In this document: piece by piece, positions 44,245-45,917 of the stretch
How positions within the stretch are numbered: position 1 is the stretch's first letter
Layout of the letters: each line of letters begins with the position of its first letter
Assembly (NCBI GenBank): GCA_019448385.1
Contig: JAGTXO010000002.1
Coordinates: 992,001-1,056,000 of the forward strand
Source: Diacronema lutheri
Taxonomy: Eukaryota > Haptophyta > Pavlovophyceae > Pavlovales > Pavlovaceae
Length of the DNA stretch: 64,000 nt
Direction of reading: 5' to 3'
The notes under the pieces: generated by a model
Seen by the model: the letters and a program-made list of their open reading frames with translations, nothing else
Database searches by the model: none
Told to the model about the DNA's origin: nothing
Position numbers and translations under genes: made by a program

Positions 44245-44287
44245 ATTCAGAACACGACACACAGATCCATCGGGAGTTTTCGTGGCG

Positions 44288-44362
44288 ACGGCGAGTGTGC
44301 GTCGTCTGCAGCCGCGAGCGCCTCGGCGCTTGTGGCCGGCTGCAGAGTCATGGGCTCGCCGT
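44288..44362 (-). ncRNA. SECIS element, form 2, in the 3' UTR of the selenoprotein gene
   Basis: Minus-strand order: helix I ACGGCGAG (44355-44362) pairs with CTCGCCGT (44288-44295). The quartet is ATGA (44348-44351) opposite CGA (44302-44304), the non-Watson-Crick core. Helix II TCTGCAGCCG (44337-44346) pairs perfectly with CGGCTGCAGA (44305-44314). An internal loop with the unpaired ACAA follows, and the apical helix III AGCGCC/GGCGCT (44317-44330) makes it form 2. It begins 52 nt after the stop codon of the upstream coding region, as required for SBP2-dependent recoding of UGA. Confidence 0.88.
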
Positions 44363-44414
44363 GCCAACGTCGACTCGCTGTGGCGCGCAGGCCAGGTGCA
44401 GGCCCAAAAACAAG

Positions 44415-45062
44415 CTACGCGACAACCTTCGGGATGGCGGCGTCGAGGACCGCCTTGAGTGGCGCGTGGTCGCCGGTTGACTTGTCAAAGTGCTGGTAAA
44501 TGCAGCGCTCGCCCGCAAAGACGAACGTGCCGCCCTGCTGCAGGGCCTGCGACTGCTCGGGCGGGATCCACACCTTCCAGTTGGAAAGCACGCCGAGCAG
44601 GTCCTTAGCGCCGTCGCGCTTGATGCGATCGAGGATCGCGTACGGCGTCGACGGGCTGAAGAATGTCTCGCCCACGCCCTTGTACAGGCCGATGGCACTG
44701 TAGCACGACGACGTCGGGTCGGCGTACAGGCACTCGCGCGGGAAGGCGAGGTGATCGCAGAATGCGGGGCCGCGCTCGGGCGTGCCGATGCCGACGGCGA
44801 CGAGCTTGACGCCCGCCGCGTCCAGCAGCGGCTTCGCGTCTCGGAACTGGCTCGCCAGCTCCTGGCAGAAAGGTCACCCGAACGAGCGGAAGAAGACGCA
44901 CACCGCGCGCTCGCCCGCAGCCGCGTCCCAGCCGGACGTCACGTCGACGCGCGTCAGATCGGTCGCGCGGTACACCGCATTGCCCCGCAGCCGTGAGTAG
45001 AGGCTCGCCTGGCCCGTCACCGCCGCGGTGGCCGCAGCCGCGTGCAAGAGCGCGAGAGCCAT
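44415..45062 (-). CDS. SelU: Selenoprotein of the SelU/PRXL2 (AhpC-TSA_2) family with U-x-x-C redox motif
   Basis: 215 aa from the ATG at 45062, with an in-frame TGA at 44874-44876 read as selenocysteine 63. The flanks are FFRSFG-U-PFCQELASQF, so Sec takes the first place of the thioredoxin-like CxxC. The TGA is followed in the same frame by 152 conserved residues (KLVAVGIGTPERGPAFCDHL, ECLYADPTSSCYSAIGLYKG and beyond). Family layout, the position of Sec and a SECIS 52 nt after the stop support recoding. An N-terminal signal peptide (MALALLHAAAATAAVTG) sends it to the ER or plastid. SelU/PRXL2 proteins are peroxiredoxin-like oxidoreductases. An upstream ATG at 45116 is possible. It shares a 113-bp promoter with a PDI gene. 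Confidence 0.88.
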
Positions 45063-45175: not shown

Positions 45176-45917
45176 ATGCCGCGAGCAGTGCTCTTGCGCG
45201 CGTGCGTCGCGTGCACGCTCGCCTGCGTAGCGTCCGGGGCCGCAGTGGACTTGACTTCCGAGACGTTCGACTCGCTCGTCTTTGAGTCGGGCAAGAACGC
45301 CATGGTATGCGTTGGACGCGCGTGGGCGGCGGCGCGGGAGCGGTTGCAGGCCGCCGCGCGCGGCGCGCGTGACCTCACGGCCGCGCTCCGCGGCCACGCT
45401 GCCGCGCTTCAATGCGCGCCTCGCGAACTCACCCTTGCGCCCGCAGATCAAGTTCTTCGCCCCGTGGTGCGGCCACTGCAAGGCGATGAAGCCAGCGTGG
45501 GACGAGCTCGGCACGGAGTACAGCGACTCGAGCTCGGTGCTCATCGCCGATGTCGACTGCACGGCGGAGTCTTCCAAGGGGCTGTGTGAGAAGCACGGCG
45601 TGAACGGCTTCCCCACCATCAAGTCGTTCACGAGTGACACTGGCAAGGACGGGCAGGACTACGAGGGCGGCAGGGACCTCGAGTCGCTCAAGGCATACGT
45701 GAGCGAGAACCTCGCGGCCAAGTGCCTCATCGCCGAGCCGGCGGCGTGCACAGAGAAAGAGGTGGGGTTCATCGCAAAGATGCAGGCTAAAGGGGGCAAG
45801 GCGGAGGCGGCCGCCGAGCTGAAGCGGCTCGAGGGTTTGAAGGGCAACCCGATGGCGCCCGACCTCAAAAAGTGGGTCAACCAGCGCGTCGCGATCTTGC
45901 AGCAGCTCGCGAAGTGA
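45176..45917 (+). CDS. Protein disulfide isomerase, single thioredoxin domain with ERp29-type C-terminal domain
   Basis: Two exons, 45176-45304 and 45447-45917 (199 aa), GT-AG intron, phase 0. A signal peptide (MPRAVLLRACVACTLACVASG) is followed by a thioredoxin domain with active site FFAPWCGHCKAMKPAW and the cis-Pro loop GVNGFPTIKSF. The C-terminal 70 residues (AKCLIAEPAACTEKEVGFIAKM to the end) form a helical domain like the D domain of ERp29 and plant PDIL2. PDIs form and reshuffle disulfides in the ER lumen. The C-terminus is LQQLAK, without a KDEL-type retrieval signal, so retention may need a partner or the protein may move on. Confidence 0.93.

Follow-up and report, generated by a model that had tools for sequence, protein, structure and literature searches.

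Organization of the locus

The window (the whole stretch of DNA that was analysed, 64,000 nucleotides, with a GC content of 72%) corresponds to C69:992001-1056000 of the genome of the haptophyte Diacronema lutheri, which comprises 43,492,796 bases in 103 contigs. On its minus strand lies a gene coding for a protein of the PRXL2 family, with a TGA codon within its frame and a SECIS hairpin in its 3' untranslated region, and a gene coding for a protein with a thioredoxin/PDI domain is found head to head with it. The features, in window coordinates, are the following:

44415..45062, minus: coding sequence of a PRXL2/AhpC-TSA_2 protein, 215 aa plus TAG, with its ATG start at 45062 (translation)
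44874..44876, minus: in-frame TGA at codon 63, very probably read as selenocysteine (Sec), first position of a UxxC (U63-P-F-C66)
45009..45062, minus: hydrophobic N-terminus, residues ~1-18, possible signal peptide (hydropathy)
44288..44362, minus: SECIS element in the 3' UTR, apparently of form-2 type (fold, pattern scan, covariance model)
44355..44362 and 44288..44295, minus: 5' and 3' arms of SECIS helix I, 8 bp, ACGGCGAG/CTCGCCGT (sequence and fold)
44348..44351 and 44302..44303, minus: SECIS quartet, ATGA with GA (pattern scan)
44337..44346 and 44305..44314, minus: 5' and 3' arms of SECIS helix II, perfect 10 bp, TCTGCAGCCG/CGGCTGCAGA
45176..45917, plus: thioredoxin/PDI-domain gene (CGHC) with one putative intron; PF00085 on 45447-45914, E 8.7e-21

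The frame running from 45062 to 44415 contains exactly two stops, the TGA at codon 63 (44876-44874) and the TAG at codon 216 (44417-44415). After the TGA, 152 residues follow in frame, GC3 is 90.3% before the codon and 90.1% after it, and no in-frame ATG is found 3' of it. The assembly has been polished with both PacBio and Illumina reads (PMC8379373), and a base error at the TGA is therefore unlikely. Sequence, translation and scripts bear out the minus-strand gene of the initial annotation, with its TGA at codon 63 and 152 residues beyond, and the coordinates and counts given there for gene and hairpin stand with the sole exception of the length of helix III, discussed below. The start codons of the two divergent genes are 113 bp apart. 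The neighbouring protein has a hydrophobic N-terminus; the start and intron of its gene are our own reading of the sequence, and the first piece (45176-45304) gave no Pfam match.

Protein family and predicted structure

The protein matches PF13911 (AhpC-TSA_2) at residues 74-194 (E 2.8e-23; 82.9 bits vs a cut-off of 27), wholly 3' of the UGA, while the match to PF00578 falls just under the cut-off (25.4 vs 26 bits). Sequence likeness before the UGA is supplied by the full-length homologues P0010, P0012, and P0018, whose alignments begin at residues 20, 6, and 11, respectively, cross the UGA column and end at residues 209-213. An AlphaFold2 model (mean pLDDT 91.5, pTM 0.86) finds its best PDB matches in human prostamide/PGF synthase (9usa/9us9, E 3e-9 to 5e-7) and has the thioredoxin/peroxiredoxin-like fold of the PRXL2 family. 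In this model, residue 63 is placed between a strand (52-58) and a helix (64-82), just ahead of the helix. Residues 63 and 66 align with Cys44 and Cys47 of the human enzyme (PRXL2B), both of which are mutated to Ser in 9usa (title of the PDB entry), so that the UxxC (U63-x-x-C66) lies at the active-site column of the family. The N-terminus, where the pLDDT is below 50 at residues 1-4 and 6-15, had been annotated as a signal peptide; its hydrophobic character and low model confidence suggest that the protein may be located in the secretory pathway or in the plastid.

Homologues and the residue-63 column

The homologue set comprises 95 proteins, 71 spanning residue 63 and 24 not spanning it. Alignment to SelU/PRXL2 proteins had been proposed as a check of the Sec site, and it places Cys at this position in 70 of the 71 spanning sequences (the remaining one, P0085, is divergent), the residues around the TGA being kept ungapped (FGC-PFCQEL). 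Among the 24 others, 21 are short proteins that start downstream of the column (at residue 64 or 65 in eight cases), and P0087, P0089, and P0095 fail to span it merely because the local alignment starts later. All 11 homologues of at least 59% identity are short and start 3' of residue 63, including the nearest one, P0001 from Pavlovales sp. CCMP2436 (75% identity), which starts at residue 73. The closest full-length relative is that of Phaeomonas parva, with 51% identity and Cys at the site. Many land-plant homologues are named AAED1 in their sources, and a few prostamide/PGF synthase; from the names of these plant proteins, the D. lutheri gene apparently belongs to the AAED1 (PRXL2C, 'SelU2') branch.

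A tree was built with 35 rows, five from D. lutheri and 30 chosen from 100 proteins found, and without animal PRXL2A/B/C references. The closest partner of the window gene in this tree is the Pavlovales sp. CCMP2436 protein (support 94/85), and both sit in a set of 19 rows (88/89), in which 17 rows are short and a single full-length one, that of Phaeomonas parva, has Cys. A SelU1-like set containing a paralogue on C27 is well apart from it (100/100), and the branches of two further paralogues (C86 and C89) are long and unsure in their placement. A start 3' of the UGA column is no proof of Sec, because one such short row, P0091, groups with Cys-bearing land plants. Single-protein scans, which reach close relatives only, gave 16 pattern matches and no relative in viral contigs, and 42 pattern matches with one relative (a Bacteroidetes MAG, 25% identity) in GTDB genomes.

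The SECIS element

The hairpin contains the quartet and helices I and II, by which the SECIS of a eukaryotic selenoprotein is recognized, in the 3' UTR. Helix I starts 52 nt past the TAG stop, a C.C mismatch sits between helix II and the quartet, and an ACAA bulge is present. The layout initially described (8-bp helix I, quartet, 10-bp helix II, ACAA, and the 52-nt spacing) was recovered except for helix III, which has 5 bp (AGCGC-CGAG-GCGCT; sequence and fold) and not 6, since only 2 nt would be left in the loop if a sixth pair formed. The apical AA is 16 nt from the quartet TGA, compared with 12-14 nt in six sister elements, as counted by eye. The region 44274-44372 folds at -49.8 kcal/mol vs a shuffle mean of -35.6 (z = -4.06), and none of 200 shuffles was as stable.

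An Infernal search with a SECIS model had been suggested as a further check, and in this case the Rfam model SECIS_1 did not support the element: the target was unmatched even at E 10, and no match was obtained in the 64-kb window or the whole genome. When applied to nine short candidates, SECIS_1 gave sub-threshold matches in four of the seven sister elements (L050, L051, L052, and L054); L049, L053, L055, and L056 were left unmatched, as was the target (L057). The only weak Rfam match, to a Giardia snoRNA model (15 bits vs a cut-off of 100), was taken as chance. Pattern scans were also used. The first scanner was too loose and produced many matches in flanking DNA, the target being the best-scoring among the matches listed. 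The second was tightened after examples had been seen, the target included, and the selectivity that follows is thus not independent evidence: the target was the only match on both strands of the window, two places came up in 16 other stretches that total 308,068 strand-bases, and five of eight other selenoprotein loci were recognized (L020, L022, L042, L043, and L046, but not L021, L041, and L044).

Covariance models of the genome's own elements were also searched with. MAFFT alignments of the candidates misaligned the helices and were set aside, and a model from two sequences (R1) missed the target. A second model (R2) was trained on seven SECIS candidates from D. lutheri, including the two used for R1 but not the target; the seven had been selected by eye, for the same general pattern, in the 3' UTRs of other genes with a TGA, which makes R2 blind to the letters of the target but not wholly to its type. 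In the window, R2 placed the target first of 12 matches (24.8 bits, E 0.0013 for the whole window; next 13.7 bits), and over 30 sources (285,357 bases) it was the best match outside the training set (E 0.0058; next 18.2 bits). The chance of a coincidence had been estimated as small, in agreement with this first rank and with the shuffle result. The seven elements have standard pairs in 94.8% of 96 cells, with slid controls at no more than 51.3%, and all 14 pairs vary on both sides; they were aligned to the structure of R1, towards which these pair statistics lean. Six of the seven begin with ATGAC and finish with C/T-GA, like the target, the deviating one being that of the paralogue on C36.

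Paralogues and Sec machinery in the genome

Five PF13911 loci have been found in the genome, and in four of them the active-site column holds a TGA. These are the window gene and the paralogues on C36 (FGUVFC), C86 (LGUPYC), and C27 (PGUGLC, SelU1-like). The C86 paralogue (L021:3354-3992, plus strand) has no convincing SECIS nearby; R2 gave no match there at E 5, and the one weak candidate is without AA on the 5' side. The fifth locus, on C89 (L023:3865-4827, minus strand), has neither Sec nor Cys in this column (ADFNAW) and, to judge from these residues, is possibly non-catalytic.

Other families provide further examples. One in-frame TGA occurs in three of four Rdx-family matches, and the GPX matches fall into five pieces from four loci, with a TGA present at two of these loci. 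The contexts of these codons (YCASU, YCGGU, YCASU, ASCU, and ASKU) are, we assume, sites where Sec is expected, and we take the Rdx genes to be those named SelT/SelW. In the GPX gene on C27, the SECIS candidate (L044:2017-2064, plus strand) obtained the top SECIS_1 score of the set (26.9 bits), and by eye it lacks an unpaired AA 5' of its apical loop.

The machinery for Sec is also encoded. Nine tRNA-Sec genes above the cut-off, with anticodon TCA, are arranged in tandem at C19:159088-160638 on the minus strand (L013:3589-5139), spaced by 181-184 bp; seven are identical and two share one substitution. For comparison, PMC5330540 describes as many as four tRNA-Sec copies in a eukaryote, these with compensatory changes, and for the diatom Fragilariopsis cylindrus eleven predicted genes that are non-identical. 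In D. lutheri, a set of 37 tRNAs serving the 20 standard amino acids has been reported (PMC8379373). Sec synthase (SepSecS) is represented by three PF05889 pieces on C48 and a fourth, weak match on C82, and SelD by two pieces on C9, one of them above the family cut-off. The D. lutheri genome thus contains tRNA-Sec, Sec synthase, and selenophosphate synthetase, three of the components expected of a Sec user.

Decoding of the UGA and alternative explanations

These data indicate that the product of the gene is an oxidoreductase with a thioredoxin fold, a member of the PRXL2 (SELENOU) family, and that Sec is inserted at UGA codon 63, with a probability of about 0.94. The initial annotation had proposed Sec in the UxxC of a SelU/PRXL2 relative together with a form-2-type SECIS, and homology, the TGA-containing paralogues, the leave-target-out model and the Sec machinery all agree with it. 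The gene is taken as a real selenoprotein gene of this family, very probably with Sec at the redox active site.

Among the alternatives, the one that survives best, although highly improbable, is a pseudogene, a decaying gene in which a chance mutation turned a Cys codon into TGA. A single base suffices to convert TGC into TGA. However, the remaining frame is intact and keeps a coding GC3 of 90% after the codon, three paralogues contain a TGA in the same column, the SECIS hairpin is present, and long as well as short reads were used to polish the assembly (PMC8379373). Moreover, the start of all the closest homologues 3' of the site, as seen at the protein level, is as expected if their genes also stop there. 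Still less probable is the insertion of a different amino acid at the UGA, or a short product beginning 3' of it. The latter would accord with the 21 of 95 database homologues that begin after the column, but no in-frame ATG follows the TGA, and in the AlphaFold2 model such a product would be without the active-site residue and strand 52-58; with a SECIS and the Sec machinery at hand, decoding as Sec is the simplest interpretation. Finally, splicing out of the TGA has hardly any likelihood, for although 301 frame-keeping GT/GC...AG spans of 30-400 nt can be drawn over it on paper (unsurprising in GC-rich DNA) and we read an intron in the neighbouring gene, homologues keep the flanking residues ungapped, and such an intron would delete conserved active-site residues.

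Decoding of the UGA as Sec can be placed in the eukaryotic scheme, in which SBP2 binds the SECIS quartet and eEFSec delivers Sec-tRNA. By analogy with this established biology, SBP2 would bind the quartet of the D. lutheri hairpin and eEFSec would supply Sec-tRNA at codon 63. Sec63 and Cys66 would then serve as a UxxC pair in the reduction of a substrate, at a guess a peroxide or a disulfide, and a thioredoxin/PDI-like partner would re-reduce the pair. Since the divergent neighbour codes for a CGHC protein whose N-terminus is hydrophobic, a function in the secretory pathway can be suggested, the compartment also being a guess; the two genes may likewise share their regulation and have a role in the ER. 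A broader proposal, to which slightly less than even odds are given, is that an AAED1(PRXL2C)-like Sec form is common to pavlovophyte haptophytes, chlorarachniophytes, and uncultured plankton and is hidden by database entries starting 3' of the UGA, and that its D. lutheri gene and the PDI-like one make up a head-to-head redox pair, in a genome where nine tandem tRNA-Sec genes could raise the supply of Sec.

This gene is of biological significance because it indicates the use of Sec by a pavlovophyte. In the open-access literature searched, nothing was found linking Diacronema lutheri to selenoproteins, pavlovophytes to selenium, or AAED1 to selenocysteine, and for Pavlova and selenoproteins no title among the matches listed concerned algae. 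By term count, words beginning with 'seleno' are absent from the main text of the paper describing the D. lutheri genome (PMC8379373). The 21 homologues that start past the active-site column suggest how selenoproteins get shortened in databases, and the correct calling of such genes would restore the catalytic residue in the entries of a redox family.

Comparison with known systems

The D. lutheri gene shares with the SELENOU/PRXL2 proteins (SelU1, SelU2, and SelU3; PF13911) the AhpC-TSA_2 domain and the UxxC/CxxC at the active site of a thioredoxin fold. It differs from SelU1 in that it stands well apart in the tree from the SelU1-like paralogue of the same genome. As regards SelU2, we take C9orf21 to be AAED1/PRXL2C. 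Sec forms of the SELENOU/PRXL2 family have been reported in algae (PMC7539508) and in animals (PMC3473315), and the latter source describes C9orf21-like proteins as SelU2, with one Sec-containing SelU2, in Trichoplax; therefore, Sec on the AAED1/SelU2 branch has a precedent. The chloroplastic thioredoxin-like protein AAED1 of land plants, organisms described as being without selenoproteins (PMC5330540), has ~39-48% identity to the window protein; it has Cys where the D. lutheri gene has UGA, and the plant proteins are mostly longer. The nearest solved fold is that of human prostamide/PGF synthase (PRXL2B; 9us9 and 9usa), with 21-23% identity. This is a Cys enzyme with prostamide as its substrate, and the D. 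lutheri protein is likened to it by sequence and predicted fold. Another comparison is offered by the algal AhpC_a and AhpC_b, likewise selenoproteins of the AhpC/TSA type, AhpC_b with a UxxC and AhpC_a, unlike the D. lutheri gene, with TGGUT (PMC7539508). The D. lutheri gene is distinguished from both by a PF13911 match above the cut-off and a PF00578 match just below it, AhpC_b being compared by its published description. The D. lutheri gene is thus a convincing new member of the known SELENOU/PRXL2 family.
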